The translations under genes were made by a program, and so were the position numbers. This document shows, in pieces, positions 9,391 through 43,002 of a stretch of DNA of 46,769 bases. The stretch is from a virus. Each line of letters opens with the position of its first letter. The first letter of the stretch is position 1. The DNA lies in IMG/VR virus record IMGVR_UViG_3300045825_000603, positions 1-46,769 of that record. One strand, 5' to 3'. The notes below the pieces were generated by a model. That model did no database searches. It was not told the DNA's origin and saw only the letters and a program-made list of their open reading frames with translations.

Positions 9391-10227
9391 TTATACTTTT
9401 TTACTAAGCACATATGTAACATCAGTATCGTTAAAGTTCCATTGTTTTGAAATCTCCAAGAAATATGAGCGTTTTACCTTAATTGGGTTTTTCGTATAAA
9501 AATCAACAGCATCAACTTCCATTGTACCTTTTTTCCAAAGAACACCGAATTTATACCTATCATTAAGAAGATTCCAATTAAATCCCATTTCCTTACAAAC
9601 TTCAACGAGCTCATTACTTGTTTTATGCATACATTGTTTATGTGTAAGAATACTTTGTGCGAATACGTTTTTAGAGTTACGTTCACAATCTTTAGTGCGC
9701 CATAAGAATGCGTTATATGCTTCAGTATCTGTTGGTACTTGGAATACACGTGCATCAAAAAATGCTTTACCAATTTTAGATTTGATTAACTCTCTACGAG
9801 GACTAATAGTTTCGTTTAGCATATCTCTTTTTAGTTCTACAATAAGGGCTTCTCTAAGTAACTCATTAAAAGTCATACTTGCGAAACTAGCCATTAAGGA
9901 AACAATTTTTTGTACACGACCGGCATAGATAAACCCACTCACTCCTTGAACACCTACCTCATGTGATGGTTGAAAAATTAATGTAATCTCATCTGATTGT
10001 GAGTATGCAGATACTGCATGAAACTCATCCATAAGTAAACGAGATGTTTCTGACATCAATTTAGTTAATAGTTCATCGAATGGTTTTTCGAAACCTTTTG
10101 TCCATTTACTGAAACCATGCCCATCAATTCTCACAACAGTGTAATCTGATGGTGTTAAATATGTCTCAGTTGCTTTCTCATATTCTTTAATACGTGCCCC
10201 GAAAGGGTCTTTATCTACGATACTCAT
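9391..10227 (-). CDS. Thg1-like protein (3'-5' nucleotide polymerase)
   Basis: 278 residues. Thg1 family enzymes add nucleotides to RNA 5' ends in the 3'-5' direction; the Thg1-like branch repairs truncated tRNA 5' ends. The catalytic palm motifs are intact: RIDGHGF at 33-39 (metal-binding Asp35) and YSQSDEITLIF at 75-85 (Asp79, Glu80). The family hallmark LWRTKDCERN follows further on. Length and order agree with the family. The start ATG follows an AAGGAA site. Together with RNA ligase 2, CCA-adding enzyme and KptA elsewhere in the window, it suggests RNA or tRNA repair. Confidence 0.88.
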   Translation of the reverse strand: MSIVDKDPFGARIKEYEKATETYLTPSDYTVVRIDGHGFSKWTKGFEKPFDELLTKLMSETSRLLMDEFHAVSAYSQSDEITLIFQPSHEVGVQGVSGFIYAGRVQKIVSLMASFASMTFNELLREALIVELKRDMLNETISPRRELIKSKIGKAFFDARVFQVPTDTEAYNAFLWRTKDCERNSKNVFAQSILTHKQCMHKTSNELVEVCKEMGFNWNLLNDRYKFGVLWKKGTMEVDAVDFYTKNPIKVKRSYFLEISKQWNFNDTDVTYVLSKKV

Positions 10228-10253
10228 TTCTTTTCCTTCTTTTGACTGTATTG

Positions 10254-10269
10254 ATTATAACAGATTTAA
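10254..10269 (-). promoter_or_regulatory. possible early promoter for the Thg1-like gene
   Basis: TATAAT at 10259-10254 with TG two bases upstream. The TTAA lies only 6 bases further upstream, closer than in the other sites, so this is a weaker match. Confidence 0.45.
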
Positions 10270-11522
10270 CCTTTATTTTTGCTTACATTGAAATGTTTGA
10301 AGTTTTTATGAATAAACCCATCCCAGGTATCAACCCCATGTGTATCAAGAAACATCACCGGAACCTTAGGGATCTTTTTCCATTCTTTAATCGATTCAAT
10401 ACCCATATCAGTAATTACGATCATTGCATTGTATGGAATTTTTTCATCATCAGCATATTTGATTGCTGGGTATATGCATGTGCCACCTGATGCCCTACGA
10501 GTTATTTTTCTCGTTTTAGAATCGAAATCATCTACACCATGTACTTGTGTGTCAACTTGAATTATTTTGAATTTAGAGTTTGTGAGTCTACAAATCTCTT
10601 TAATCTCGGTTAATCCTTTAACTATCTCATCATTAGACATTGACCCCGAAACATCAAGAACAACAACAAGATCAAATGTTGTATCCTTTGTTTTTCCTTT
10701 AAGATCCTCACGTGTAGGAAATCTACGATCAGATCGCATGATTGTCCGACGAACATTACTTTTCTTATTACCAACAATCTTACGTAATTCCTTGCGCCAA
10801 TCGACAACGTTCTTTGTCTTAAAGAGATCAAGCATATTTGATAATCCTGCGGGGGTGTTTCCACGTGATTTTTGTAATGCTTGCTCAAGCATATTTTTAG
10901 TTAACTCTTTTCGGAATTCATCATCACCTACTGATTCTTTCCAATCGTGTGCATCCATAGGAACTGGAAAATCTATATTTAATTCATCGCCGTTTCCTGA
11001 GGTATCACCAGAATCAAGTTCGCCTTTATTCAATGCATCTTGAATTAGCTTCTTAAGTTTTTCTCTATTAGCATTATCCTGTTCTTTTTGCTGTTTGTAT
11101 TTGTCATTCTGTTCTAACAGATGATAATATTGCTCAGATGTTAAGTTTGCAGGTAGATTGTATTGATGGTGATGTAATCCTGAAGCAGGAATATTTTCAA
11201 TCATCTGATTAATTGCTATATCTGTTCCGTAATTCCACCTTTCATGATCATCCTGTTTTCGTATGATGACATGATTATACACAATATGTGATGCCTCATG
11301 AATGAGAATTGCAATCTTTTCTTTCTCAGTGAACTTATTAAACAAAACTGGGTTAATATCAAGATAATAACTATATAGATTGAAATATACACCCGCAGGC
11401 GCAGGTAGTGTTTTATCCATTGTTATTACGCATTGTGCTAATATATGACCGTAGAACATGAAGTCCTTATGGTTAAATATCTTTGCAATAATTTCTTCAA
11501 GGTAGAATCGATTAAATTTCAT
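10266..11522 (-). CDS. VWA-domain protein with N-terminal metallopeptidase-like domain
   Basis: 418 residues. The N-terminal domain carries HEASH (75-79), an HExxH zinc-site pattern, as in the putative metallopeptidase domain of the DUF2201/VWA-like family. The C-terminal VWA domain has the MIDAS motif DVSGSMS at 290-296, with further conserved Thr and Asp residues (GGTCIYP, VITDMG). Such proteins partner with MoxR AAA+ ATPases in metal insertion or protein remodelling; here the partner would be the split ATPase. The middle (about 130-200) is a low-complexity polar linker. The start overlaps the end of the upstream gene by 4 bases. Confidence 0.85.
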   Translation of the reverse strand: MKFNRFYLEEIIAKIFNHKDFMFYGHILAQCVITMDKTLPAPAGVYFNLYSYYLDINPVLFNKFTEKEKIAILIHEASHIVYNHVIIRKQDDHERWNYGTDIAINQMIENIPASGLHHHQYNLPANLTSEQYYHLLEQNDKYKQQKEQDNANREKLKKLIQDALNKGELDSGDTSGNGDELNIDFPVPMDAHDWKESVGDDEFRKELTKNMLEQALQKSRGNTPAGLSNMLDLFKTKNVVDWRKELRKIVGNKKSNVRRTIMRSDRRFPTREDLKGKTKDTTFDLVVVLDVSGSMSNDEIVKGLTEIKEICRLTNSKFKIIQVDTQVHGVDDFDSKTRKITRRASGGTCIYPAIKYADDEKIPYNAMIVITDMGIESIKEWKKIPKVPVMFLDTHGVDTWDGFIHKNFKHFNVSKNKG

Positions 11523-11875
11523 AATAATACCTCCGGATATTTCTTTGAGAATAGTTTTAAAATATCTTTGAATAATGCTTCATTTTTAAATGTAACATTC
11601 TTTTCTATAGTATTAATTGCATCAATGATATTTGTGAATAATTGTTTGTCAGCGGAAACCCATTCGTTGTCTTTTAAATACAATGTCTTTATACAATGGG
11701 TTGTGATGGATTCGTTAAGGCTGAATGTAACACTAATGGCAGTTTTTACCTCTCCTTTTATCTTCAAAGAATCGAAGATAAATGAGGTGGGTTCACATTC
11801 GAATAGCGTTAACTTACCTGCAGATGTGCTATAAAAACATGTATCAATGTTAGGGTATTGATGTATTTCAAGCAT
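11519..11875 (-). CDS. hypothetical protein
   Basis: 118 residues, no recognised family, mixed strand and helix pattern and no membrane segment. It is the first gene after an early promoter, and its end overlaps the start of the VWA gene (ATGA), so it may belong to that complex. Confidence 0.6.
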   Translation of the reverse strand: MLEIHQYPNIDTCFYSTSAGKLTLFECEPTSFIFDSLKIKGEVKTAISVTFSLNESITTHCIKTLYLKDNEWVSADKQLFTNIIDAINTIEKNVTFKNEALFKDILKLFSKKYPEVLL

Positions 11876-11896
11876 TCTATTCCTTCTATTTGTATA

Positions 11897-11928
11897 ATTA
11901 TAACATAATAGAATTAATAGAAGCTTAA
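11897..11928 (-). promoter_or_regulatory. early-type promoter
   Basis: TATAAT at 11902-11897 with TG, TTAA at 11917-11914 and TTAA at 11928-11925 (11-base phasing). Drives 11519-11875 and the VWA gene. Confidence 0.7.
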
Positions 11929-11929
11929 A

Positions 11930-12112
11930 TTATTTTTTTAAGACAAACGCAACTACAATACCTACGAACGCAATAATCCACAAGAGATTCCATGCAAGTT
12001 TTATGAGCATGAAGAAGATCATCATAAAGAACCCGATAATCATCGGTAGATTAAACAAGATAAACATTGACACTAATGCTATCACCAAAAATTTAATTGC
12101 TGTAGAATTCAT
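11930..12112 (-). CDS. small hydrophobic membrane protein
   Basis: 60 residues, almost entirely hydrophobic, with two membrane segments (about 7-30 and 34-57) and a Lys-Lys C-terminus. Function unknown. It shares one base with the stop codon of the upstream gene (TAATG). Its size and topology resemble small phage membrane proteins, including some that affect lysis or superinfection, but nothing in the sequence decides this. Confidence 0.6.
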   Translation of the reverse strand: MNSTAIKFLVIALVSMFILFNLPMIIGFFMMIFFMLIKLAWNLLWIIAFVGIVVAFVLKK

Positions 12113-12294
12113 TATTTTCCTTTTCTTTCAACGTGTTCACGTTTAACAAGTTCATCTTTGATATCTTGTACAAGTTGTCGTGCATCACGAGTCTCATTAC
12201 TATTATAGTCAAGGTTTTCCTCACGAATTGACAATCGTCTTTTTGCTTTTAACAACGCTAATAGACGTTGTGTGGTTAGTTTACTTAATTCCAT
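12112..12294 (-). CDS. small charged helical protein
   Basis: 60 residues, rich in Arg, Lys, Asp and Glu and predicted to be fully helical (LLALLKAKRRLSIREENLD). No family recognised. Overlaps the upstream gene by 10 bases. Confidence 0.55.
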   Translation of the reverse strand: MELSKLTTQRLLALLKAKRRLSIREENLDYNSNETRDARQLVQDIKDELVKREHVERKGK

Positions 12295-12575
12295 AATTCA
12301 CTCCATTCAAATTTTGAACCCTTAACGAATTCTGCTGTACACGTGACTGGTTTACCATCATGTCCCATAACTTGTGTTACGCCACTACCATAAACGAAAT
12401 ATAATCCATTGATACAATCACCCTGGGTTGTTTTTGATGTTCGATTATTATCTGTTATTGTATATACATTTTTATCTGCATGTTCCTTTAAGTGAGGAAA
12501 TGCATGATACACAGCAAATGCTAATAATAACATTAGTAGTGAAGGAAATAAATCATCCTGTATAAATTTTCTCAT
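12285..12575 (-). CDS. membrane-anchored small protein
   Basis: 96 residues with one N-terminal membrane segment (about 11-28) and a polar, probably periplasmic remainder containing CINGLYFVYG and DGKPVTC. The paired Cys could form a disulphide outside the cytoplasm. Similar small anchored proteins are common in large phages; function unknown. The start overlaps the NAD kinase stop as ATGA. Confidence 0.6.
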   Translation of the reverse strand: MRKFIQDDLFPSLLMLLLAFAVYHAFPHLKEHADKNVYTITDNNRTSKTTQGDCINGLYFVYGSGVTQVMGHDGKPVTCTAEFVKGSKFEWSELWN

Positions 12576-13348
12576 CGTCTCTCCTGTTGTAGTTTCATTC
12601 GTTTTGCAAAGAAATCTTTTGGATTAAGAAATGCAATATTGAATTTGTTTGGACATTTTTTCAAAGTAACAATATCACCCTTTTCTAAACCAGTCATGCT
12701 TACACCATCGATAAAGAGTGTTGGTGTACAACGAAGACTTTCAATTTTTATTCTAACCTTTTGAGGTTTCATCAACTCATCGATACGACGATTAGACACT
12801 ATACTTGTCACACTCCAAAGATTTGCATCAATAGGGATGAGTTTCCCACCGTTATTCATATTGAACGCAGATGAGCCTAGAGGTGTGCTAATACAGATCC
12901 CGGTTCCACTAAATTGAAATTTATCGAATGACCCGTTCTTAGATGTCATCTCAAATGAATTCCAATCAGAAATATCAGATCCAATAATAACATCATTAAT
13001 GGCCTCATATGTACATTCCATTCCAGAGATGAACTTTACATTAACTTCTACCTTTGGGGTACTGATTACGGTAGGAACAATCGTATCATTCAATAATCCT
13101 TCAATAATACGGAAATCATTATCGAAGTTATTCATGATAAAATTTAAGGTTCCAAGTCCTTTACCAAAGAAAGGAATCTTAGTATCAATGTGATTTTTAT
13201 GTGCATGGAGCATTGCCCCATCTCCACCAATAACAAAAAACATCTCCGGATCTTGCTCGGTGAACATTTCAGGGAATGATTTCTCTAGGAAACGAATATA
13301 TGTTTCTTGGCGTGGGTCTGTTCGATTTACTACTGCTTTAATTCTCAT
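12572..13348 (-). CDS. nadK: NAD kinase
   Basis: 258 residues. Converts NAD to NADP with ATP. The family signature GGDGAML is at 41-47, the N-D pair of the substrate pocket at 118-119 (AINDVI) and the Gly-rich TPLGSSAF at 155-162, equivalent to TPTGSTAY in bacterial NadK. The length is slightly shorter than most bacterial enzymes. The start overlaps the upstream stop codon as ATGA. A phage NadK could raise NADPH for dNTP synthesis or drain NAD. Confidence 0.87.
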   Translation of the reverse strand: MRIKAVVNRTDPRQETYIRFLEKSFPEMFTEQDPEMFFVIGGDGAMLHAHKNHIDTKIPFFGKGLGTLNFIMNNFDNDFRIIEGLLNDTIVPTVISTPKVEVNVKFISGMECTYEAINDVIIGSDISDWNSFEMTSKNGSFDKFQFSGTGICISTPLGSSAFNMNNGGKLIPIDANLWSVTSIVSNRRIDELMKPQKVRIKIESLRCTPTLFIDGVSMTGLEKGDIVTLKKCPNKFNIAFLNPKDFFAKRMKLQQERR

Positions 13349-13533
13349 GATTTTTCAGGTTCCTTCTCACACCACATTTTAAATGCTACTGCATATTCAG
13401 GATATATACATGCAAGTTTAAACACATTCTCATGATCAGCTTTCATGAATAATTCAAACAAAGCAGTTGAGAAGCTTCCTAATGATTCATTATTGTAATA
13501 TCTTACAATTTCTTCAGGTGTCATCTGTGACAT
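13345..13533 (-). CDS. small hypothetical protein
   Basis: 62 residues beginning MSQMTPEEIVRYY. The start at 13533 is preferred over one two codons upstream because of the AAGGAT site. Helical and acidic, function unknown. It is the leader gene of the NAD kinase operon, with an early promoter directly upstream. Confidence 0.55.
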   Translation of the reverse strand: MSQMTPEEIVRYYNNESLGSFSTALFELFMKADHENVFKLACIYPEYAVAFKMWCEKEPEKS

Positions 13534-13560
13534 AATCAATCCTTCTTTTTTAATAGAATA

Positions 13561-13592
13561 ATTATAACATAATTAACTTAATCTATCTTTAA
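13561..13592 (-). promoter_or_regulatory. early-type promoter for the NAD kinase operon
   Basis: TATAAT at 13566-13561 with TG, TTAA at 13581-13578 and TTAA at 13592-13589. Overlaps the 3' end of the upstream gene. Confidence 0.7.
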
Positions 13593-13803
13593 GATCTTTT
13601 AATGAATCTTTAACCACAGTATAACTTAAGGGCATACCAAAATTGTAAAACTTGTCTATATCATTAATGATAATGAAGAATATGTCTTCTGCAGGAACAT
13701 CCATCTGAACAGGAAACCAATTAAAATAACCTACTGGTTTTATATTGATAATCCGTTTATGGTCTATTGTGTGAGGTGTTAAAATTACATTAAATTTTGG
13801 CAT
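13573..13803 (-). CDS. small hypothetical protein
   Basis: 76 residues beginning MPKFNVILTPHTID. The start at 13803 has a GGAGAT site; an earlier in-frame ATG at 13815 does not. Mostly beta-strand pattern. Function unknown. Confidence 0.55.
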   Translation of the reverse strand: MPKFNVILTPHTIDHKRIINIKPVGYFNWFPVQMDVPAEDIFFIIINDIDKFYNFGMPLSYTVVKDSLKDLKDRLS

Positions 13804-13836
13804 AAGTATCTCCATTAAGGTTTTACTTATTTACAT

Positions 13837-14064
13837 TTATTTTGAACTTGTTGTCTGATTGACAGTTACCTTAACAATATCGCCACATTCTTTGCGCCAC
13901 ACAGTGTGAATTCCTTGACCAGGATTTGGGCATTCCTGTAAACCTTCTTTTGCATAAGCAATAGTGGTATCTTTATTATAGTTCAAAAATCCAGTAACCG
14001 TTACAATTAATGTTAAAAATACCCCTGACCAAAAAATTGACCACATTTTATCTTCTGAGCTCAT
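13837..14064 (-). CDS. single-span membrane protein with GLQEC motif
   Basis: 75 residues beginning MSSEDKMWSIF; the start at 14064 has an AAAGGA site. One membrane segment (about 7-28) is followed by a small external domain with GLQECPN and VWRKECG. The protein at 29312-29497 has the same plan (membrane span, GLQECS, LWKKECK), so the two are paralogues of a family of small phage envelope proteins with two conserved Cys. Function unknown. Confidence 0.6.
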   Translation of the reverse strand: MSSEDKMWSIFWSGVFLTLIVTVTGFLNYNKDTTIAYAKEGLQECPNPGQGIHTVWRKECGDIVKVTVNQTTSSK

Positions 14065-14074
14065 ATTATTCCTT

Positions 14075-14320
14075 TTATTGTTTGATTTTGTAATAGTTTC
14101 TTTTGAGATCATTTATCACTACCCTACATTCAGATGGACTTAGTTTAGAAACATCTATATTATGAATAACTAGTTCTACACATGTGCTCCCATCATAACC
14201 TTCATCCTTTTTATGCCAGTCACAATGAAAATCAAATAACTCTTTTACTTTTTCCGGTTCACATACAATAATCTTACCTATTTTATTTTCACCGTAAAAA
14301 TGTGTTATTCTGTATGTCAT
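14075..14320 (-). CDS. small hypothetical protein
   Basis: 81 residues with mixed alpha/beta pattern, two Cys and no known motif. The start overlaps the upstream stop as ATGA. Confidence 0.55.
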   Translation of the reverse strand: MTYRITHFYGENKIGKIIVCEPEKVKELFDFHCDWHKKDEGYDGSTCVELVIHNIDVSKLSPSECRVVINDLKRNYYKIKQ

Positions 14321-14478
14321 ACAATCACATCCACATATTTAATATTTCCACAATGTAAGCATTGAAGAACATAACGTGTACCTGTAGAACCCGTGACATC
14401 ATTACGTAAAGGTCCCTTCGAAATTACAAACCATTTGTGGACATGTCCCACAAATAACATCTCAAGTATATCATGCAT
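14317..14478 (-). CDS. small CxxC protein
   Basis: 53 residues beginning MHDILEMLFVGHVHK. Contains CLHCGNIKYVDV near the C-terminus, one half of a zinc-ribbon-like knuckle. A longer open frame to 14598 exists but runs antiphase inside the phosphatase gene. The ATG at 14478 overlaps the upstream stop by 8 bases and fits the operon style. Confidence 0.5.
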   Translation of the reverse strand: MHDILEMLFVGHVHKWFVISKGPLRNDVTGSTGTRYVLQCLHCGNIKYVDVIV

Positions 14479-14998
14479 CGTTGAAATCTCGATATTCATC
14501 GTTATTACATATCGCATTGAAAACTGTTGGGTTTGCCTCATAACGTGGAAAATCATCAATTTCTGAATGACTTGTTCTGTATCCATATACATCGCCATTA
14601 AAATTTACAATACATTCAACTGCTTTTCCTACTCCTGCTGATCGAGACATTCCTGCTCTGCAATGAATAATAAAACGTTTATCTTTGTTTTTTTCAATGA
14701 ATTCTTTGATCACTTTACCTTGGAGTTTTGTGAGTGGTTTGTATCCACCAATCTGATATTCGACATCCCAGAATTTTGTTTCAAGTACATCGTGAAAACC
14801 TTCAGTATATGCAGGATTTTCAACACTTAACCACATTGAACTTTCTTCAGGTTCAGTGATAGAAACCAAGACAAGATCTTTTCTCTCATCCATAGTGATA
14901 TGTTGAGAAAAATCCTTGAATTCCTGCCAACCCATAATTCCGTAGAATAAATCATTATTAATTACTGGTCCACGTTTAAAATTAAACGAATTAATCAT
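14471..14998 (-). CDS. Cys-dependent protein phosphatase-like protein (DSP/PTP fold)
   Basis: 175 residues. FIIHCRAGMSRSAGVGKAVE contains the phosphatase P-loop HCx5R (Cys113, Arg119) typical of dual-specificity and tyrosine phosphatases. An upstream Asp around 78 could be the general acid. The segment LVLVSITEPEES before it fits the first strand of such folds. Substrate unknown: protein, RNA cap-like 5' phosphate and nucleotide targets are all known for this fold. The start overlaps the next upstream gene by 8 bases. Confidence 0.75.
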   Translation of the reverse strand: MINSFNFKRGPVINNDLFYGIMGWQEFKDFSQHITMDERKDLVLVSITEPEESSMWLSVENPAYTEGFHDVLETKFWDVEYQIGGYKPLTKLQGKVIKEFIEKNKDKRFIIHCRAGMSRSAGVGKAVECIVNFNGDVYGYRTSHSEIDDFPRYEANPTVFNAICNNDEYRDFNDA

Positions 14999-15467
14999 TT
15001 TGTTCCTTTGTTTTTCCGATTGCTAAGGTGATTGTATGTGCTAGATCACTTGAGAATGGTATTTTTAATTTCTTTGCATAGTACTTGAGGTAGTCCATTT
15101 TTATGGCAGTTGTTGGAGCGCCTAATACTAGTTTATTTGGATCTTTTGCGACCCAATATCCGAACTCAATATTTGTAGTGAATCCAGGTAATGTATTATC
15201 ATTCCGTGGAATCCAAAAAAGAATTACGTCTGCCTTTGATAGACATTCTTCCTCCCACTCAATTTGAGCACTGTACGCAAAACCTTTATCCCAATTACCA
15301 TCTCGCATCTCAGGAACAAATAATGTACCATTGAAACGAAGTAACTGAAATGCGCTTATTGCATCATTACGCCATGATTCCACGTACTTTGAGCGTGGTG
15401 TTGGACCTGCGAGGAAAATAGATTTTCCTTCTATTTCCACGGATTCCTGTGCATAAATTATTTTCAA
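14991..15467 (-). CDS. nucleoside 2-deoxyribosyltransferase-like protein
   Basis: 158 residues starting with TTG (AAAGGA site upstream). The segments IFLAGPTPRS (17-26), SAQIEWEEECL and ILFWIPRND, then LPGFTTNIEFGYW match the nucleoside 2-deoxyribosyltransferase-like family, in which a Glu acts on N-glycosidic bonds. Members exchange or hydrolyse bases of (deoxy)nucleotides. In a phage it may modify dNTP pools; the exact substrate is unknown. Confidence 0.72.
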   Translation of the reverse strand: MKIIYAQESVEIEGKSIFLAGPTPRSKYVESWRNDAISAFQLLRFNGTLFVPEMRDGNWDKGFAYSAQIEWEEECLSKADVILFWIPRNDNTLPGFTTNIEFGYWVAKDPNKLVLGAPTTAIKMDYLKYYAKKLKIPFSSDLAHTITLAIGKTKEQND

Positions 15468-15468
15468 T

Positions 15469-15609
15469 TTAATCCTTTGGTCGTTGAGCCATCAATTTAT
15501 CAAATTTTTTGCGTAACTCTTTTGTATATTCATTTTTTGTGTGGATTGATGAAATTTCATCACTTAATCGCTTTAGTTCGTTAATCCATCTTACTTGTGC
15601 TTCATTCAT
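15469..15609 (-). CDS. small helical protein
   Basis: 46 residues beginning MNEAQVRWINELKRL, strongly helical and basic. A GAAGGA site precedes the ATG and an early promoter lies upstream. Its stop is three bases from the TTG start of the deoxyribosyltransferase-like gene. Confidence 0.5.
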   Translation of the reverse strand: MNEAQVRWINELKRLSDEISSIHTKNEYTKELRKKFDKLMAQRPKD

Positions 15610-15631
15610 ATAAATCCTTCTTCTTTCGTAT

Positions 15632-15652
15632 ATTATATCATAAATACCTTAA
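15632..15652 (-). promoter_or_regulatory. early-type promoter
   Basis: TATAAT at 15637-15632 with TG and TTAA at 15652-15649. Drives the minus operon from 15609; the plus-strand endonuclease VII-like gene starts 26 bases beyond it. Confidence 0.68.
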
Positions 15653-15677
15653 TATAACATGAAAGAAAAGGATTAAC

Positions 15678-16187
15678 TTGATATTCTTAAAAACAACTGA
15701 AATACGTTCTCTAAAGGAAAAATTACTGGATGAGCAAGGTGGTGTATGTCTTATATCGGGTATGCCTATATTTGGTGAGATTGCAGTTCTTGATCATAAA
15801 CACAAATTATTTAAGGATCAACCACTTGGTGAAGATAATGCAGGATTTTGTCGAGGTGTATTGCACAGATCAATCAACTCGTGGGAAGGAAAGGTATTTA
15901 ATGCATATCGTAGATTAGGATTACATAAGATAGATAAAACTCTACCTGAATTGTTACGATCATTGGCAGATTATTTAGAACGAGAACCAACTGAGTATAT
16001 CCATCCACGTGAGGTCCCAAAGGAACCTAAAATCGGTAAACGTGAGTTCGCTAAGTTGAATAAACTCTATAAGGAAAAATATCCAAATAGGAAACAACTC
16101 GAGTATCCATCTTCGGGCAAATGGACCAATGTTCTTAAAGAACTTGCCGAAGAGATCAATCAGATTAATCCCATTTCGTCCATTTGA
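15678..16187 (+). CDS. 49: recombination endonuclease VII-like protein (gp49-like)
   Basis: 169 residues with a TTG start (AAAAGGA site). T4 endonuclease VII resolves Holliday junctions and branched DNA before packaging. The core LDHKHKLF (38-45) carries the His-metal motif, and CRGVLHRSINSWEGK corresponds to the CRGLLCNxCNxxEG segment of T4 gp49. Three of the four zinc-binding Cys of T4 gp49 are replaced here (CLIS instead of CLIC; LHRSI instead of LCNLC), so the zinc site looks lost while the catalytic His and Asn remain. It is one of the few plus-strand genes and converges with the next minus gene (23-base overlap). Confidence 0.8.
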   Translation: MIFLKTTEIRSLKEKLLDEQGGVCLISGMPIFGEIAVLDHKHKLFKDQPLGEDNAGFCRGVLHRSINSWEGKVFNAYRRLGLHKIDKTLPELLRSLADYLEREPTEYIHPREVPKEPKIGKREFAKLNKLYKEKYPNRKQLEYPSSGKWTNVLKELAEEINQINPISSI

Positions 16188-16428
16188 TGTTAACATTTTT
16201 ACCATCCTGATATATCTTGTAAATATGTCTGCCGAACTTCTTCTTGAAGTATTTTACTGGTTTATTTGACATATCATTTAAATAACTCGTTGCTTCTTTT
16301 GCATCATCATCACTATCTGTGACAATAATTATTAACTCTTTATCTTCTTCAAATTTGAAGGTTCCTTTTACTAAAGGTTTCAATTCTTTAGTAATATCAT
16401 CCTTCATCTCTGCAATATGTGCCTTCAT
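16165..16428 (-). CDS. small hypothetical protein
   Basis: 87 residues, Lys-rich, alpha/beta pattern with LIIIVTDSDDDAKEA. No family recognised. The ATG at 16428 lacks a clear ribosome site; an ATT four codons downstream has a GAAGG at good spacing, so the start is uncertain. Confidence 0.5.
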   Translation of the reverse strand: MKAHIAEMKDDITKELKPLVKGTFKFEEDKELIIIVTDSDDDAKEATSYLNDMSNKPVKYFKKKFGRHIYKIYQDGKNVNIKWTKWD

Positions 16429-16449
16429 GTAAAAATGATGTAAACTTCA

Positions 16450-16746
16450 TTAAGATTTCCATGTGAATACCAACGTCTTACCTTTTGGAGTCATAGAATC
16501 AATATGAGATTTATATGTCTTATTAAACTCTTCGGCATTTTTTGATTTGTTGTACATAAACCAAGCCATTAAAGATCTTGCGTCCTCGGGTCTGATAGTT
16601 GAACAATTAGCGTTTTTTTTATCTGGTGCAAGAACCGTTCCATCATAATCTACTTCAGTATCTTTTGTAACCTTATCGATAAGATCACCAACTTCCTTTT
16701 GAACATCAACCAATTTGCTTGACGAGAATAGTTTCTTAAATGTCAT
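16450..16746 (-). CDS. small hypothetical protein
   Basis: 98 residues beginning MTFKKLFSSSK. Start at 16746 chosen for its GAGAG site over the ATG at 16761. The N-terminus resembles that of many small T4-like phage proteins (MxFKxF). No function can be assigned. Confidence 0.5.
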   Translation of the reverse strand: MTFKKLFSSSKLVDVQKEVGDLIDKVTKDTEVDYDGTVLAPDKKNANCSTIRPEDARSLMAWFMYNKSKNAEEFNKTYKSHIDSMTPKGKTLVFTWKS

Positions 16747-31300: not shown

Positions 31301-31301
31301 T

Positions 31302-31486: not shown

Positions 31487-32554
31487 TTATTGAAGATCCT
31501 TAACCAACTCATCATTAAACCATCGACGTGCAACATTATTAATCAGGCTACTTACATCTTTAGGTTCAAGTCCTTTTTCTGCAAGAATATCCATTTCTTC
31601 TTTAACTACATCATTCATAACCGCTTTAAGGAAGTTACCCAATGAGTTAATTGATGGTTCTAATTTTTCATTATTGATACCGAATATGTTCTGCCACGCT
31701 TGTTCAAGTCTCAGAGAATTAGCAGCGTAGTTTGCAAATGCAATTTTAACTTGTTCTTTTTCGTTATCAACAGGTTTAAGAGTCTTTACTTTAGAATTAG
31801 CGTGCTTTTCGCCTTTTACTTTAAATCGTTGCAATGTCCCATTGAGCAAGAAGACGAATACAATACCTTCACCTACGTTTGATTCTTGACCAAATGCTTT
31901 ACCAACGGGTGATGCAGGTTCTACTACTTCCTCGACGAGTTTAATCATCTCATTCTGTGAAAGTAATGGAGTATTAAAATCAATCTCAATCTCATATGTA
32001 GGGAATTTGGAAATGTTATAGATATTGAAATCTAAATTATCCGGATGAATTCCCATAGTGTCATACCATACAGATGATTCTTCCTCATCAGTATCGATAG
32101 GTGATACTTTAAAATGTTGGAAGATAATTGATGTTTTTCCGATTCCAGTCAATGCTGACTTGTCCTGGATATTTCCACCACACCATTCATAGAACACGGA
32201 AACGTTATGTGTATCTGTATTGATGTTATAAATTTTAACCAATCGTGAGATTACATCCAACCAGCCATCTTTATCACGATTAACAGCGAATGCACAACCA
32301 GCATTGTCATTTTCAAGTGTAATGATATTATTACGTGATTGAACCCATAAACCGTCAATGTTGTTATAACAAACTGCAGCGTTTGTACCATGAATCTTTT
32401 CTGTACCAGTTACAATAATTTTAGGCATTAATGCACTACGATTATAGATTGGATTGCCTTCGGCGTCTAATCCTTCGTATTGGGCAACATGTTGTACGTT
32501 TTTAATGGTTTCACGGAATTGTCCGATTGAACCAAAGTTGATGAATTTTTGCAT
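31487..32554 (-). CDS. rnl2: RNA ligase, T4 Rnl2 family
   Basis: 355 residues. Seals RNA nicks with ATP. The adenylation motif KIHGTN is at 53-58. Further motifs: VSVFYEWCGG (motif III-like), NVGEGIVFVF (motif IV) and LQRFKVKGEKHANSK (motif V with two Lys). The C-terminal 90 residues are helical, like the Rnl2 specificity domain. Rnl2 ligases repair nicked RNA such as tRNA cut by host defence nucleases. It is the first gene behind its own early promoter. Confidence 0.88.
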   Translation of the reverse strand: MQKFINFGSIGQFRETIKNVQHVAQYEGLDAEGNPIYNRSALMPKIIVTGTEKIHGTNAAVCYNNIDGLWVQSRNNIITLENDNAGCAFAVNRDKDGWLDVISRLVKIYNINTDTHNVSVFYEWCGGNIQDKSALTGIGKTSIIFQHFKVSPIDTDEEESSVWYDTMGIHPDNLDFNIYNISKFPTYEIEIDFNTPLLSQNEMIKLVEEVVEPASPVGKAFGQESNVGEGIVFVFLLNGTLQRFKVKGEKHANSKVKTLKPVDNEKEQVKIAFANYAANSLRLEQAWQNIFGINNEKLEPSINSLGNFLKAVMNDVVKEEMDILAEKGLEPKDVSSLINNVARRWFNDELVKDLQ

Positions 32555-32582
32555 ATTTTTCCTTCTTTCTTCTGATACATAT

Positions 32583-32614
32583 ATTATATCATAATAAACT
32601 TAATGTATGTTTAA
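32583..32614 (-). promoter_or_regulatory. early-type promoter for RNA ligase
   Basis: TATAAT at 32588-32583 with TG, TTAA at 32603-32600 and TTAA at 32614-32611. Confidence 0.72.
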
Positions 32615-33154: not shown

Positions 33155-33715
33155 TTATATATTAATCGTATTTATGATCTTATTCAGAAGATCTTCATGA
33201 TCTAACATATTAACTCGATGACCTGTTTCGATAAAAGTAACATTTTGAAACTGTTTTGCAACTGTGTCAACATCACCAATTATATCATCAAATCGTCCAA
33301 TGATTGTTGCAGTTGCGTTACGTGATTTTTCATAACTAATTGATGTTACGAATTGAAAGAACTCGTTGGTTACTGTTTCATATTTAAATGTCGCATAATT
33401 TTTTTGTTCAGTTCCTATCCATCGATATAATATATCTTTGATATTTGGAACAGGATTAATTAAAATAGTCTTTACTGGGATTGTTTGTGAAAGATAATTT
33501 GCAATCAACGAACCTAAAGACGTACCAATCAATATGGTTTCAGGATCTCGTTCAATTGCATCAATCAAATCTATACGCATACGACCTAAATCTTCATCCA
33601 GTGTTTCACATGTATAGTTGAATCCTAACACTGTTGCATTAGGAAACATGTATGAAAGGTCTTCTACTTTTTTATCACTATTCGATAAAAATCCATGTAT
33701 GTAAATTAATGTCAT
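33155..33715 (-). CDS. alpha/beta-hydrolase, YqiA-like esterase
   Basis: 186 residues beginning MTLIYIHGFLSNSDKK. The nucleophile elbow GTSLGSLIA, the IYIHGF oxyanion segment, the Asp in GRFDDIIGD and the His in TGHRVN form a full Ser-His-Asp triad. The layout matches the small YqiA/YcfP esterase group. Substrate unknown. Start at 33715 has an AGGAAG site and lies under an early promoter. Confidence 0.78.
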   Translation of the reverse strand: MTLIYIHGFLSNSDKKVEDLSYMFPNATVLGFNYTCETLDEDLGRMRIDLIDAIERDPETILIGTSLGSLIANYLSQTIPVKTILINPVPNIKDILYRWIGTEQKNYATFKYETVTNEFFQFVTSISYEKSRNATATIIGRFDDIIGDVDTVAKQFQNVTFIETGHRVNMLDHEDLLNKIINTINI

Positions 33716-33741
33716 CTTTTCTTCCTTTCTTTTATACAATA

Positions 33742-35033: not shown

Positions 35034-35362
35034 TAATCTTTCTCTACTAATCTTGCGATTTGATTTTTAATACCAAAATCAGACTCTAGCAATGCAAGAA
35101 CAAGTTCTTCCTCACCTTTTTCCAATTCTGTAACGGTCATCTCTTTTTTGAGAACCTTAATTGCGTTCATTACTTGACCAACAAGAATTCCATTTGCTTT
35201 AGCATCTTTTTTGATGTCTTTGATGAACCCATTGATTTCTTTCTTTTGCAACTCATGACTAAGGATCTCAGATGCAAATTGCAATGTGAGATTTTGTTCC
35301 TCATTTTTCTTTGTCTCGATAAACGTTTCTACCAACGCTTCTTCATCTGGTGTTAAACCCAT
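35033..35362 (-). CDS. helical hypothetical protein
   Basis: 109 residues, almost entirely helical and Glu/Lys-rich (ETFIETKKNEEQNLTLQFAS; KVLKKEMTVTELEKGEEELV). Could act as an adaptor or coiled-coil partner. Unknown. Confidence 0.55.
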   Translation of the reverse strand: MGLTPDEEALVETFIETKKNEEQNLTLQFASEILSHELQKKEINGFIKDIKKDAKANGILVGQVMNAIKVLKKEMTVTELEKGEEELVLALLESDFGIKNQIARLVEKD

Positions 35363-35832
35363 TAGTTCCCCTCAATTGAAATATAGTTTGATGCACCTTC
35401 AAGCGCTTTTACATTATCAAGATATGCATCGTTGCTTGGGAAATCCCAGTAACAGAAATCTGATGACATTGTATAAACACCTCCTTGCAATTGAATCTCT
35501 TTCGAGTAATCCAAGTTGAAGATGATACGATTTTTACCACTGTCGAATACAATATTTGCTACATGATCACCATTGATTACATAATGATGTGAATCAGTAC
35601 TTACAAATACATTATCACCCATCGATTTGATAACGCCATTCATAACGTTCTGTAATGAACCATCATAAAATGCATAGGTGTAATCTGCAACCATATTTCC
35701 ATTACGTAATGTAATGCTGTGTGAGTAATTAAAAATTACCTTTGTCTCACCTTCAGCTGTCGTTTTGAAACCTACGCTTGATACTGCATCAAGATTAATG
35801 ATTTTTTGTCCAGGGACTCGAATATTTTTCAT
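35362..35832 (-). CDS. beta-rich hypothetical protein
   Basis: 156 residues with repeated strand and turn patterns (SITLRNGNMVADYTYAFYDG, NRIIFNLDYSKEIQLQGG). No family recognised. An AAGGAA site precedes the ATG. Confidence 0.55.
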   Translation of the reverse strand: MKNIRVPGQKIINLDAVSSVGFKTTAEGETKVIFNYSHSITLRNGNMVADYTYAFYDGSLQNVMNGVIKSMGDNVFVSTDSHHYVINGDHVANIVFDSGKNRIIFNLDYSKEIQLQGGVYTMSSDFCYWDFPSNDAYLDNVKALEGASNYISIEGN

Positions 35833-35846
35833 GTTTTTCCTTCAAA

Positions 35847-36086
35847 TTATAGTTTTTCTTTTATTTCTTTTAATAGATTTTGTAATGTGGTATCTTCGCT
35901 AAATACCACAAAATACATTATATTATTGTTATTGTTAATATATAGAGTCCGTGACTCACTATGTCGTATAAAGACATCTTTATTCTGTATGTCAATAAAA
36001 ATCTCAGATATTGAATCATTAGATTTTCCATCGGATATTCCTATTCCTACGACATTATCAGATCCTACCTTAAAATGTAACTTCAT
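35847..36086 (-). CDS. small hypothetical protein
   Basis: 79 residues of mixed pattern with an Asn run (YINNNNN). Unknown. A GAAAGGA site precedes the ATG. Confidence 0.5.
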   Translation of the reverse strand: MKLHFKVGSDNVVGIGISDGKSNDSISEIFIDIQNKDVFIRHSESRTLYINNNNNIMYFVVFSEDTTLQNLLKEIKEKL

Positions 36087-36087
36087 A

Positions 36088-36984
36088 TTATCCTTTCATC
36101 GTAATGCGCTCCAGTTCTACTCGGATACGTTCAGGTGCAGTTTTTGTACAGGCTTCGCTAAAGAATTCTCTCACTGCACTCAACGAGTTACTTTCAGGGG
36201 TGAATCCTTTATCAAGGAATCTATAGAAACGAAAAACTCGCAAGAAATCTTGTTCGATTCTGTCTTTTGGTTTTCCTACGAATCTCAATGTTTTCTCTTT
36301 GATGTCATCGATACCTTGACCTGTTGGGTCAATCAATTGTATGTCTGTAAGATTGAGGTACAATGCATTTACAGTAAAGTCACGACGTTCAGCATCATCG
36401 TAGATTGTTCCAATTTCAACACTTTCAGGTCTGCGACCGTCAACATATGTGCCATCTTTTCTGAAGTTTGCAATCTCGTAATCAACTCCATCCTTAGTTA
36501 CAATTAATACAAGAAATTGTTTTCCTGCTTCTTTTACAGTAAATCCTGCATCAACAAACAATCTTTCAAGATCATCATAAGCGATGTCTGTAACGAAATC
36601 GAAATCTTTTGGCTCTTTATTGATTAATGTATCACGAACACACCCACCCACGAGGCATGAATTTTTTGATGCACGAAGAACTTCAACAACATCCATTGGC
36701 AAAAATCTATGGATTCCCACGAATTTTCTATCGTAATGATCAAGATCGTTGATTACACCGATTAGTGTTTTTGACAAAGGAGTAAATCCTTTGTTATCTA
36801 CACAAATTTCGAAAAGATCATGTACAGTATAAAACAATTCAATATCTGTTTTGTCAGCAAGTTCAAGTAAATTAAAAACCTGCTCAGCAGTACAATCATT
36901 TTTTAATGCTTTATACCCAGGTATTTTTGCACGAAAAAAACCTTCATTGATTTTTTTGATCAGTAATTTTTTGTATTGTTTCAT
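36088..36984 (-). CDS. cca: CCA-adding enzyme / tRNA nucleotidyltransferase
   Basis: 298 residues. Adds or repairs the 3' CCA end of tRNAs. The class II nucleotidyltransferase head is clear: VGGCVRD at 112-118, the metal-binding DFDF at 127-130 and RRDFTVNAL at 200-208, then the neck helix RIEQDFLRVFRFYRF. About 105 extra residues precede the head domain, an uncommon N-terminal extension. The tail domain is shorter than in bacterial enzymes. It is the first gene behind an early promoter. Confidence 0.9.
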   Translation of the reverse strand: MKQYKKLLIKKINEGFFRAKIPGYKALKNDCTAEQVFNLLELADKTDIELFYTVHDLFEICVDNKGFTPLSKTLIGVINDLDHYDRKFVGIHRFLPMDVVEVLRASKNSCLVGGCVRDTLINKEPKDFDFVTDIAYDDLERLFVDAGFTVKEAGKQFLVLIVTKDGVDYEIANFRKDGTYVDGRRPESVEIGTIYDDAERRDFTVNALYLNLTDIQLIDPTGQGIDDIKEKTLRFVGKPKDRIEQDFLRVFRFYRFLDKGFTPESNSLSAVREFFSEACTKTAPERIRVELERITMKG

Positions 36985-37011
36985 GTGTTCCTCATTTCCT
37001 TCTTATTGTAC

Positions 37012-37044
37012 ATTATAGCACAATGAGCCTTAATTGTTGTTTAA
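37012..37044 (-). promoter_or_regulatory. early-type promoter for the CCA-adding enzyme
   Basis: CTATAAT with TG at 37017-37012, TTAA at 37033-37030 and TTAA at 37044-37041. Confidence 0.68.
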
Positions 37045-37096
37045 ATAATAACTATTATCATCTTTAATAGTCATCATCTTCATCATTTTCATCAAA

Positions 37097-38606: not shown

Positions 38607-39187
38607 TGACTTTTCAAAAACTAATAGAAAAATTTACAGACATGGGAAAACTATCTGATACTGATCTCAAAAAAGGCCAATCATTGACTGATGAAGAATT
38701 TAATGAAGTAGAAGGAACGGCGTTTTTCGATGCTATATCAAAAATTCGGGATAACGATATTTCCAAATTAAACAAAGGACTTCCTTATAAAGGATTAGAT
38801 ACATTAACTGTATATAAACGACCTGAGTATAAAAATATGCGTTGCTTCCTAGGACCTAATAACTCATCTGGATATGCCCTTCATGATAAACATGAACTTG
38901 TATCTGTATTTAGTTCACAAGGCTCATCAGGAAACGCAATCATGACATCAGCAGTTAAAAATGGTGCAACCCATTTAGATTGTTTTGCATTTCGTGATAA
39001 ATCTGATAATATATCAGGACCATTGTACTCATTGTACTCAAAACATGGTTTCAAAATTGATAAATCAATGAATTCTGGAACACCTGGCGAAGCATATGCA
39101 ATCGTAAAAGGAGTCTCAGATTTCGTTGATGATAATGAGGTTGCACATCCTGAGGACGAACGTGTTGTTATCTTTATGAAGAGATAA
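38606..39187 (+). CDS. phage GNAT-like protein
   Basis: 193 residues; the start at 38606 has an AAGGTGAG site (a GTG at 38597 does not). HELVSVFSSQGSSGNAIMTS, then KNGATHLDCFAFRD and LYSLYSKHGFKI, resembles phage proteins with an acetyltransferase-like core (pattern VSVFNxxGxxGxA...GAxxLDCF...LxxLYxxxGF). No catalytic residue can be named with certainty. Plus strand, converging with the amidohydrolase gene (14-base overlap). Confidence 0.55.
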   Translation: MTFQKLIEKFTDMGKLSDTDLKKGQSLTDEEFNEVEGTAFFDAISKIRDNDISKLNKGLPYKGLDTLTVYKRPEYKNMRCFLGPNNSSGYALHDKHELVSVFSSQGSSGNAIMTSAVKNGATHLDCFAFRDKSDNISGPLYSLYSKHGFKIDKSMNSGTPGEAYAIVKGVSDFVDDNEVAHPEDERVVIFMKR

Positions 39188-39914
39188 CACCTGCCTCATA
39201 ATCACATATTAGATTAAGAATATTTCTAATATCATCTTTCAACCTATCGAAATTCTCTGTCTTAACTGCAATGAAATCTTCATTCTTCATGTACAACTTT
39301 CTGTTCACTTCGATCATAATACTTTGAACCTTATCACTTCTTGATGTGAATCTATCAGGACAAATACTACCACTAAATGGGTAATTGTGTTTAATCGTAT
39401 ATCCACGTGATACAAAAAACTTTCCGATTGCTTCAATCAAAGATATATCAACACTATTGTATCGTGAAAACCCAATACATATATCAGGTGCCTTCATATT
39501 TTTTTCGCTGTATCCAATACCTTCCTGAAATGAATGACAGTCCACGATTACTGCTATAGGATATAATGTAGTATATTGGTCAATGAAACTTTCTAGTTTT
39601 TTATGATATTCAAAATACTCTGATATATCATAGCTCTCCACAGATTTTAATCGATTACCATCAAGGGTTTTAGTATAGATAATTCCACGGCCAATCTTAT
39701 CATTTTCAATCTCACGTGAATCATTGAATCTTTCCATATCAATGTATAATCTGCTTTTTTCTGCAATCAGACGTGTTGATGCATCATGAACAAATAACTC
39801 ATCTGTAAACCAGTCAGTAGCATAAAACAATTCCCGTTTAAGTGTTTCATCATTTATAATGAATAACCCACGCTCAGGTATTTTAGCGCTTGCATGTGGT
39901 ATATTTAATATCAT
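39174..39914 (-). CDS. N-formylglutamate amidohydrolase-like protein
   Basis: 246 residues. The family pattern is clear: NIPHASAKIPE (4-14), TDWFTDELF, AVIVDCHSFQEG, then YPFSGSICPD and IMIEVNRKLYM. Metal-binding His, Asp and Glu residues are in place. Family enzymes hydrolyse N-formylglutamate or related amides and are related to zinc carboxypeptidase and amidase folds. In phages the substrate is unknown; a cell-wall or amino-acid role is possible. Confidence 0.85.
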   Translation of the reverse strand: MILNIPHASAKIPERGLFIINDETLKRELFYATDWFTDELFVHDASTRLIAEKSRLYIDMERFNDSREIENDKIGRGIIYTKTLDGNRLKSVESYDISEYFEYHKKLESFIDQYTTLYPIAVIVDCHSFQEGIGYSEKNMKAPDICIGFSRYNSVDISLIEAIGKFFVSRGYTIKHNYPFSGSICPDRFTSRSDKVQSIMIEVNRKLYMKNEDFIAVKTENFDRLKDDIRNILNLICDYEAGVISS

Positions 39915-39967
39915 TTTTCTTTCCTTTCGTCGCTGTTGCGCCTTTTATTTTTTCTTAAGGTTAAATC

Positions 39968-40993: not shown

Positions 40994-41344
40994 TTATTCC
41001 CCTTTATCTAAAATCCATTCACATACATCAAAAACCACTTTGAATTCATTTGATGCAGAACATCGATACGAATCCTGTCGCTTACCATCACCTGTTGCAC
41101 GTGCATTCCAGTGACTAATTTCCTTCCCATCCAAATCTTTAACATAAATGAATGATGTCTCAATGGTATAATGATGATACTTTTTTGCATATACTTTACA
41201 CATACTCGAAAGCTCAAAAACATTTAACCATACTATATCGGTGGGTTCGAGATGAATCATAAGACTTGTACCTTGCATCTCAAATGAGGTTGCTTCTTTT
41301 CCTGCAAAATCAAGTATTTTATTTAAAAGTTTTAAACTAATCAT
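40994..41344 (-). CDS. hypothetical protein
   Basis: 116 residues, alpha/beta pattern with Trp-rich conserved-looking segments (ISHWNARATGDG). No family recognised. ATGA overlap with the upstream gene. Confidence 0.55.
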   Translation of the reverse strand: MISLKLLNKILDFAGKEATSFEMQGTSLMIHLEPTDIVWLNVFELSSMCKVYAKKYHHYTIETSFIYVKDLDGKEISHWNARATGDGKRQDSYRCSASNEFKVVFDVCEWILDKGE

Positions 41345-41868
41345 ACTGATGCCAGTCTATATGAATTCATCTGAAGCGCCAATAACTGTTCATATTCTGA
41401 ATATTCATCATACTCTTTAACAGTGGTTGTATATTCCAACCCTGAGATAGTTTCGTTGTAATACAACCATCCTTCTGTCGTAAAAAATGAGCCTCGAGAT
41501 GTTCTAAGTATCTCAGATGCTTTATAGATTTTTTCAGGTAATACAACGCTGATAGCAGTCATCAACCCACCCAATGAATCATCCTCATGAAATTCTGCCC
41601 AAGGATATGGGTTCTCTGGGTTATCGAGAAAATCACGTAATACATGAAGATCTGGTGATGTTCCTGCATTTAATGAGATACATGTTTTATGATTTCTCGA
41701 CCAATTAAATAAGATATCTTCTTTGTTAATTGCATCCTCATCATAATCCAATCCAGTAGGAATTTCTGGAAGTGCATATCTGTTGAATAACTCAACTGTC
41801 GAATGTAGGGCTTGAATTCCTTTTGCCATTGGTGATAGCATAAAATGCGTAAATGTGTATAATCTCAT
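41341..41868 (-). CDS. conserved phage protein (possibly peptidyl-tRNA hydrolase 2-like)
   Basis: 175 residues. The opening MLSPMAKGIQALHSTVELF, then FNWSRNHKTCISLNAG, follows a pattern conserved in many T4-like phages (SPxxKGIQxxHxxxE, WxxNHKTxIxLNxG). The arrangement weakly recalls peptidyl-tRNA hydrolase 2, whose GKxAAQxxHA helix precedes a W..G...I strand. This link is speculative. Confidence 0.5.
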   Translation of the reverse strand: MRLYTFTHFMLSPMAKGIQALHSTVELFNRYALPEIPTGLDYDEDAINKEDILFNWSRNHKTCISLNAGTSPDLHVLRDFLDNPENPYPWAEFHEDDSLGGLMTAISVVLPEKIYKASEILRTSRGSFFTTEGWLYYNETISGLEYTTTVKEYDEYSEYEQLLALQMNSYRLASV

Positions 41869-42107
41869 TTAACTCCAATCATATCTGTTTCTTTTACCAT
41901 AACATGTGCAAGGCGATTATCGTTAAACACCTTCACCTGTGCGAGATCTGTTAGGATATTGTAATATACATATCCTCTTACTATTTTACAACCACAAACT
42001 CTACCTTCGAGTACATTATCACCGCTTCTGTATTGAACCATCTTATTGTAAAATTGATCCATTACATGTTCTAAACGTGATTTAATTGCTTTTTCCATTG
42101 CTGTCAT
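41865..42107 (-). CDS. small hypothetical protein
   Basis: 80 residues beginning MTAMEKAIKSRLEHVM; start at 42107 has an AAAGGA site and overlaps the upstream stop (TAATG). The C-terminal half has beta pattern (GRVCGCKIVRGYVYYNIL). Unknown. Confidence 0.55.
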   Translation of the reverse strand: MTAMEKAIKSRLEHVMDQFYNKMVQYRSGDNVLEGRVCGCKIVRGYVYYNILTDLAQVKVFNDNRLAHVMVKETDMIGVK

Positions 42108-42415
42108 TATGCATCCTTTCTTGTAATGAGTTCCCAAAATGCATCCTTGGACGGTATTCCTACAGGAATTGTCGCTGTTGCAAGAAACTTGATGAATTGT
42201 TTTTTAACTTCATTATAACTCGATGAAGGTACACAAGATTTGTAATAACCTACATTCTTATCTTTTGCTTCTATGAAATAACGGAATCTATCAGTATCAA
42301 ATGATATTGTAGCTACAATATCATCACTAATAAAACCTGCAGTTGTTCCGTTTACAACCCATTGTTGTTTATTGAACTTATTATCTTTTTCCCAATCTTT
42401 CTCAACTAATGATAT
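42107..42415 (-). CDS. protein with a proposed ATA start
   Basis: 102 residues (ISLVEKDWEKDNKFNKQQW onward), ending ELITRKDA. There is no ATG, GTG or TTG in the frame from above the promoter to the stop. An own early-type promoter lies 34 bases upstream, and a GAAGGA site is 6 bases before the ATA at 42415 (an ATT at 42421 is the alternative). Its stop overlaps the next start as TAATG. Codon use and composition look like a real gene. Function unknown. Confidence 0.55.
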   Translation of the reverse strand: MSLVEKDWEKDNKFNKQQWVVNGTTAGFISDDIVATISFDTDRFRYFIEAKDKNVGYYKSCVPSSSYNEVKKQFIKFLATATIPVGIPSKDAFWELITRKDA

Positions 42416-43002
42416 CTTAATTCCTTCAATCTTTCTTTTCTTTCAATAATTATATCATAATAAACTTCAAGATATTTTGGGTCAATATGATCAACTAACC
42501 AGACATCATTTTCAGAACGATAAAATTTAATACCATCAAGTTCCATTGATCGTGTATCAATATAAAATATAATTGTACTTGAATTTTTGGTTTTACGTCT
42601 TGCACCTACAACTTTTGCCGTTTCAAAACTTGCAGTCAGATGAACATGATGTCTTTGCATCTTACTTAAACCGTTTTTCTTGATTGCATCAAAAAATTTA
42701 CTATCTGTTCCATGATATAGATTAAAAGGAGGTTCTTCGGGTACAAGGTCAAGATCGATCTTTACTGAATGTCCTTGTGTTGCACGAATCTTACTTTTGT
42801 CATTATTAAACGTATATCGACCTTTCGTATCTTTCAAGACAATATCAACAAGCATTAACTGATTGATAGTATATTTACCGGAATCATTTATCCCTTTTAA
42901 TAAATCAGATACGCTGGCCCACCCGTGGGAATCAAGTTTAATTCCTATTACCTCAGGTTTGTGACGAAGTATGAGGCTTATAAAAACGCTTAATTTATTC
43001 AT
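42406..43002 (-). CDS. kptA: RNA 2'-phosphotransferase Tpt1/KptA
   Basis: 198 residues. Transfers an RNA 2'-phosphate to NAD+, yielding ADP-ribose cyclic phosphate and nicotinamide. Family features are complete: SLILRHKPEVIGIKLDSHGW (9-28), IRATQGHSVKIDLDL, PFNLYHGT, MQRHHVHLT and ENDVWLVDHI. Tpt1 removes the junction 2'-phosphate left by plant/fungal-type tRNA ligation; in bacteria and phages its natural RNA is unclear. Its presence with RNA ligase, Thg1-like protein and CCA-adding enzyme suggests RNA repair. It contains the promoter for the next gene near its 3' end. Confidence 0.9.
   Translation of the reverse strand: MNKLSVFISLILRHKPEVIGIKLDSHGWASVSDLLKGINDSGKYTINQLMLVDIVLKDTKGRYTFNNDKSKIRATQGHSVKIDLDLVPEEPPFNLYHGTDSKFFDAIKKNGLSKMQRHHVHLTASFETAKVVGARRKTKNSSTIIFYIDTRSMELDGIKFYRSENDVWLVDHIDPKYLEVYYDIIIERKERLKELRYH
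42449..42470 (-). promoter_or_regulatory. early-type promoter inside the kptA 3' end
   Basis: TATAAT at 42454-42449 with TG; the upstream element reads TTGA at 42470-42467. Positioned to drive the ATA-start gene at 42415. Confidence 0.6.

Follow-up and report, generated by a model that had tools for sequence, protein, structure and literature searches.

Iyer et al. 2021 (PMC7824862, section 3.4.9) list Rnl1/Rnl2 ligases, a CCA-adding enzyme, Thg1 and KptA as tRNA repair and end-restoring enzymes of jumbo phages, where they occur in varying combinations and are proposed to act against tRNA-cutting immunity; KptA is reported there from no more than a few phages, belonging to groups 1 and 3. The same four enzyme families are represented in the virus record IMGVR_UViG_3300045825_000603, a linear metagenome contig that we analyzed over its whole length of 46,769 bases (the window). 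The original prediction had called this combination striking, but it has precedents: the survey already lists all four families, and they also occur together in G025 and G062, giant contigs of 578 kb and 517 kb; the four-enzyme RNA-repair idea is already published, and the window is another instance of it. Our analysis makes it likely that the window belongs to a T4-like phage with a lineage-standard trio of RNA-end enzymes (Thg1-like protein, Rnl2-family ligase and a short CCA-type nucleotidyltransferase), probably concerned with the upkeep of tRNA ends, to which a replaceable KptA was added independently.

The jumbo-phage survey stresses that kinases, phosphatases, 2H phosphoesterases and RlaP act alongside these enzymes; among the genes scanned for the window phage, no such partner was recognised. 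The Pnkp-Rnl1 system of T4 likewise encodes RNA ligation in a T4-like phage, but the window phage has no recognised Pnkp (polynucleotide kinase/phosphatase), and its ligase is of the Rnl2 rather than the Rnl1 family, as expected for a T4-like phage since T4 also has Rnl2. The four genes are as follows:

9391-10227, minus strand: Thg1-like protein (TLP), a predicted template-dependent 3'-5' RNA polymerase (Pfam, PHROG, PDB relative)
31487-32554, minus strand: Rnl2-family RNA ligase (Pfam, PHROG, T4 Rnl2 profile match)
36088-36984, minus strand: short CCA-type nucleotidyltransferase with an N-terminal extension of ~105 residues, the catalytic head and the start of the neck (Pfam, PHROG, PDB alignment, AlphaFold2 (AF2))
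42406-43002, minus strand: KptA/Tpt1-family RNA 2'-phosphotransferase (Pfam, PHROG, catalytic residues)

The four open reading frames (ORFs) lie where they had been predicted, all on the minus strand, with their core motifs and with Pfam matches that each exceed the curated cut-off. The claim of intact motifs needs one correction: the presumed CCA-adding enzyme consists of the head and the beginning of the neck, with a glutamine in motif D.

The Thg1-like protein (Pfam Thg1, 1.3e-32; phrog_4717, 1.2e-58) carries a palm domain with the metal-site motifs RIDGHGF and SQSDE, and the EKPFD lysine, as judged by alignment with the bacterial TLP 4kgk (BtTLP), which is its best solved relative (E 1.5e-22; human Thg1, 4e-7). 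TLPs repair 5'-truncated tRNAs in vitro (PMC3701042), and the window protein, whose activity is predicted from a sequence nearer to BtTLP than to eukaryotic Thg1, shares with BtTLP the metal-site motifs and the activation lysine; it differs in its length of 278 residues with insertions. The ligase matches Pfam RNA_ligase (7.9e-8) and, across residues 3-346, phrog_548 (4.4e-41). It has motif I (EKIHGTN, of the form KxHGTN), EGIVF and KVKGEK (motifs IV and V) and an Rnl2-type C-terminal region, and a profile built from its relatives gave T4 Rnl2 (2hvq) as the sole PDB family match (4.7e-6, positions 51-317).

In the nucleotidyltransferase, the PolyA_pol head domain spans residues 111-234 (Pfam, 3.1e-31), and residues 98-295 align with residues 49-242 of the 420-residue CCA-adding enzyme 6ibp. 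The class II head motifs A-D (GGxVRD, DxD, RRDxxxN and EDxxR) are present as GGCVRD..KDFDFV, RRDFTVNAL and QDFLRVFR, the near-invariant Glu of EDxxR being replaced by Gln in the window protein only, while its relatives have ED. These motifs are shared with class II CCA-adding enzymes (6ibp, 1miv), from which the window protein differs in motif D, in its N-terminal extension and in the absence of the tRNA-binding body and tail domains; for this last reason we file it as a CCA-type nucleotidyltransferase and not as a CCA-adding enzyme. It stops ~185 residues past the GG motif, whereas phage CCA enzymes typically continue for ~340. For approximately the first 95 residues there is neither a family match nor a solved structure, and in the AF2 model the predicted local distance difference test (pLDDT) score is mostly 82-97 for head and neck and mostly below 50 for the N-terminal 70 residues. 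The short layout recurs in the phage contigs G003/G004, G020, L180 and L181, and the five short forms make up one clade (support 99/100), whereas the other phage CCA-type enzymes found are for the most part full-length proteins or longer fusions.

KptA (Pfam PTS_2-RNA, 1.3e-44; phrog_5470, 1.2e-64) has a full domain and keeps the catalytic Arg-His-Arg-Arg set at R13, H14, R73 and R117 (alignment, Pfam, PDB). It resembles the solved Tpt1/KptA enzymes 7kw8 and 6e3a in this set and in coverage of the entire fold, and differs from them by an additional tail at the C terminus, which stems from a phage promoter.

Which of these genes belong together was judged from related contigs. Positions 14487-46757 of the window are covered by G003/G004 at ~80% DNA identity and positions 1-12886 by G018 and G017 (blastn), while G020, a contig of 96,400 bases, is collinear across the whole window (gene-by-gene tblastn). 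For positions 9000-33000, no near-identical phage was found in GenBank. G004 has T4-like genes for DNA polymerase, clamp, single-strand binding protein, helicase and topoisomerase, and long ORFs beyond the window in G018 and G020 resemble, on inspection, tail and baseplate genes; the source is therefore probably a T4-like myovirus with a genome of at least 100 kb, and the 46,769-base record is probably a fragment of that genome. The trio is found in place in these relatives. The Thg1-like gene occupies the same position in G018 (72% identity) and G020 (54%), the nucleotidyltransferase is present in G003/G004 (67%) and G020 (51%), and so is the ligase, with 91% identity in G003/G004 and 39-41% in G020, which is lower than for most of its neighbours there. 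Ligase and nucleotidyltransferase genes are separated by ~2-4 kb in the window and likewise in G003/G004 and G020. KptA, however, is absent from G003/G004, G018 and G020. Co-occurrence and synteny thus hold for the trio and not for the four genes as a functional unit, and the proposal of a single set is not supported, on this point or by what looks like an insertion scar at kptA:

41021-43045, minus strand: 2 kb block containing kptA (blastn, gene-by-gene tblastn)
43002-43232, minus strand: gene for 76 residues directly upstream of kptA, with stop/start overlap and a promoter at 43268 (sequence)
42406-42465, minus strand: 3' end of kptA, which is also a phage promoter copy and ribosome-binding region and encodes the C-terminal tail (alignment, pattern scan, translated search)

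In G003/G004 the block is missing and ~40 bp stand in its place (blastn). G020 retains the flanking genes, P0008 and the 76-residue gene, and kptA alone is missing (tblastn); the 76-residue gene is 59-60% conserved in G004 and G020. In other phages and in bacteria, KptA homologues end ~20 residues earlier, with bacterial matches stopping near residue 178-183, and the last ~19 codons of the window gene are a translated phage promoter with its -10 element at 42457 (pattern scan). A translated search with KptA accordingly matched residues 180-196 to several promoter sites of G004. Because this tail overlaps the phage's own promoter and is absent from other KptAs, we infer that kptA was inserted: the tail looks like the scar of an insertion just upstream of a native promoter, into which the gene now runs. 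The base composition of kptA equals that of the window. The KptA tree points to no donor: phage proteins are dispersed through it, and the window sequence is a long, unplaced branch nearest to Bacillota sequences. The idea that genes next to kptA encode enzymes processing ADP-ribose phosphate (macro, 2H) was also dropped, since the neighbouring ORFs gave no informative family matches. Directly 3' of kptA, at 42110-42415 on the minus strand, lies an open frame of ~100 codons with a promoter and a ribosome-binding site and with ATA at the expected start codon; no relative of it was found in G003, G004, G018 or G020.

The occurrence of KptA is patchy in other phages too. Within GenBank phage sets picked by one or another of the four families, the Thg1 and CCA families are absent from the tested KptA phages (Clostridioides LIBA6276, Erwinia SNUABM_32, Dickeya AD1 and LR756500), and KptA is absent from the tested Thg1-bearing phages. 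A sample chosen through a different gene comprised 46 contigs, each at least 90 kb long and carrying a relative of P0006, a window protein described below; KptA occurs in 4 of them, Thg1 in 25, CCA in 18 and RNA ligase in 29, counts that are limited by fragments and by relatedness. KptA shows no significant association with any of the other three families in this sample (p = 0.28-0.61). Nominal significance was reached only by CCA together with RNA ligase (p = 0.03, without correction), a comparison in which PF09414 may have taken in some DNA ligases; the giant contigs G025 and G062 are the two that hold all four families. In these 46 large phage contigs the four families vary largely independently.

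The similar promoters reported upstream of the nucleotidyltransferase gene, the ligase gene and the kptA operon are real, and a copy precedes the Thg1-like gene as well:

10230-10292, minus strand: extended -10 promoter copy ~35 nt 5' of the Thg1-like gene, TGTTATAAT at 10262 (pattern scan)
32555-32614, minus strand: promoter copy 5' of the ligase gene, at 32591 (repeat family D1, pattern scan)
36990-37052, minus strand: promoter copy ~36 nt 5' of the nucleotidyltransferase gene, TGCTATAAT at 37020 (pattern scan)

The copy at 43268 precedes the operon holding kptA. A pattern scan for TTAA...TTAAG...TGnTATAAT gave ~20 copies on the minus strand, mostly 30-43 bases 5' of genes (another example is at 19473). 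The pattern is the phage's general promoter. The four enzymes are not singled out by sharing it, because the ~20 copies precede many other genes, and we therefore discarded common promoters as a sign of joint function. In this promoter, a pair of TTAA boxes spaced by about one helical turn replaces the -35 box and is combined with an extended -10 element, TGnTATAAT; it could be bound by a phage activator.

On the reading we prefer, the Thg1-like protein would rebuild lost 5' nucleotides with the acceptor strand as template, the short nucleotidyltransferase would add nucleotides at RNA 3' ends and the ligase would reseal RNA having 3'-OH and 5'-phosphate ends. The trio would most likely share the job of preserving tRNA ends in the course of infection, also when host RNases have attacked them. 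KptA, which from knowledge of its family would remove 2'-phosphates in a reaction dependent on nicotinamide adenine dinucleotide (NAD+) and so clean ends left by the opening of cyclic phosphates, would be a later, exchangeable addition at a variable site, outside any fixed four-step pathway. Of the shared purpose first suggested, RNA-end enzymes with tRNA as the likeliest substrate survive, and a counter-defence role is a published proposal (PMC7824862, PMC9503650) that may apply here; the single four-gene set is not supported.

Several points weigh against this reading. First, the activities of the trio and of KptA are predicted from family assignment. Second, the search for tRNA genes in the window was negative, and tRNA may not be the substrate of the nucleotidyltransferase, since the body and tail that bind it are missing. 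Third, for most anticodon nucleases the cut ends require a 5' kinase and cleaning of the 3' end ahead of Rnl2 (family knowledge; PMC7824862), and no polynucleotide kinase/phosphatase was recognised among the scanned genes of the window and its relatives, genomes that are incomplete and whose small ORFs were not all scanned; as no end-healing enzyme was recognised, breaks with 5'-OH and cyclic-phosphate ends would not be fully mended by the genes seen. Finally, all phage records compared may be fragments. The nearest kinase candidate is a zeta-toxin-like P-loop protein (G004, 35344-36174; G020, 13747-14574), and further candidates in the window are an AAA_28 protein (6696-7226) and an HD/nucleotidyltransferase protein (27722-28750). 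The latter, on the minus strand, has an N-terminal half resembling HD-type phosphohydrolases and a C-terminal half resembling HIGH/CoaD nucleotidyltransferases; it is present in G020 and absent from G003/G004.

A possible partner of the ligase is encoded by the second gene downstream of it:

29690-30628, minus strand: P0006, a MazG domain joined to a tandem ferredoxin-like domain (phrog_1247; AF2 pLDDT 93)

P0006 has the invariant motifs ExHxT, RxKxE...W and YFExH; it is found at the same place in G020 (80% identity) and is absent from G003/G004. Its C-terminal domain matches PADLOC 'AbiEi' models (1.8e-33), while the four enzymes themselves gave no PADLOC matches. On a Deinococcus plasmid, a relative of this domain sits between an RNA ligase gene and a gene for an AbiEii-type nucleotidyltransferase, and it is mainly from this one bacterial locus that P0006 may be put forward as a candidate RNA-repair partner. 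A search of one-per-species bacterial genomes with peptide patterns for the C-terminal domain confirmed nothing, and a general linkage to RNA ligases across phages was rejected as weak, with an Rnl2-like ligase within 5 kb of P0006 relatives in 5 of 75 phage loci. We also considered P0006 as a 2H phosphoesterase that would supply the 2'-phosphate for KptA. A HITV motif hinted at this, but the model is tandem ferredoxin-like, no 2H (LigT-like) fold is among the PDB matches listed, and there is one HxT motif where two are required. Between P0006 and the ligase, directly 3' of the latter, a gene for 239 residues (30629-31348, minus strand) ends in a long tail rich in Ser, Cys and His.

There is a more speculative view, which we hold tentatively and judge rather doubtful: the short CCA-type enzymes of the five phages may have given up recognition of the tRNA elbow and become a new type of RNA 3'-end nucleotidyltransferase serving the neighboring Rnl2. 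They would refill 3' nucleotides lost at breaks ahead of ligation, and the MazG-fused P0006 would be one more member of this repair cluster.

We consider it unlikely that the four enzymes act as a single dedicated pathway for repair when host defences cut tRNA, with KptA clearing a 2'-phosphate that a ligation or end-opening reaction leaves behind. A route from cyclic phosphate through 2'-phosphate and KptA to the ligase has been published (PMC9503650), all four genes are present with their motifs and similar promoters, and G025 and G062 show that the families can meet in one genome; yet collinear relatives keep the other three and lack KptA, KptA has no significant association with them, the promoters are generic, and in the scanned genes no kinase, 2H phosphoesterase or ligase leaving a 2'-phosphate was recognised, the sole 2H candidate, P0006, having no match to that fold. 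Equally improbable in our estimate is that the enzymes have separate roles and share a genome since large phages accumulate such genes, the nucleotidyltransferase, for example, tailing non-tRNA RNAs, KptA taking off or putting on a mark (ADP-ribose or phosphate) at the ends of RNA, and Rnl2 sealing nicks in phage or host RNA. The near-independent distribution in the 46 contigs, the fact that the CCA-type enzyme has lost its tRNA-binding part, and the reported ADP-ribosylation of RNA ends by the Tpt1/KptA family (PMC11833690) are consistent with such a division, while the short, recurrent distance between the CCA-type and ligase genes and the nominal association of this pair argue for a connection. 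That the four genes were joined from different phages during assembly is very improbable: the window is a linear metagenome contig, but a separate contig record, G016, matches positions 1-16485 at 100%, relatives cover both halves, G020 is collinear throughout, and kptA has the base composition of the window and overlaps a native promoter.

Some other genes of the window, all on the minus strand, may be recorded. A protein of 568 residues (44050-45756), with a probable signal peptide and a match to TonB-dependent-receptor-type barrels (1.2e-10), is 86-87% identical in G004 and G020 and ranks among the best-conserved genes of the window. A member of the N-formylglutamate amidohydrolase family (39174-39914; Pfam, 6.9e-36) is kept in G004 and G020. 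A PIN domain fused to a PhoH ATPase (2598-4037) has just ~37% identity in G018/G020, where most neighbors are better conserved, and a UPF0227-type alpha/beta hydrolase (2.1e-12) is encoded at 33155-33739.

For the biology of these phages, the window indicates that the RNA-repair toolkit described for jumbo phages is also present in a T4-like phage with relatives on contigs of just ~100 kb, and it allows a stable part (Thg1-like protein, Rnl2 and the short CCA-type enzyme) to be told apart from an exchangeable part (KptA). The presence of four such enzymes in one window, matching promoters included, does not amount to evidence of one pathway. Two follow-ups could matter more: the truncated CCA-type clade that lies beside an RNA ligase in close relatives, and the MazG-fused domain of P0006.

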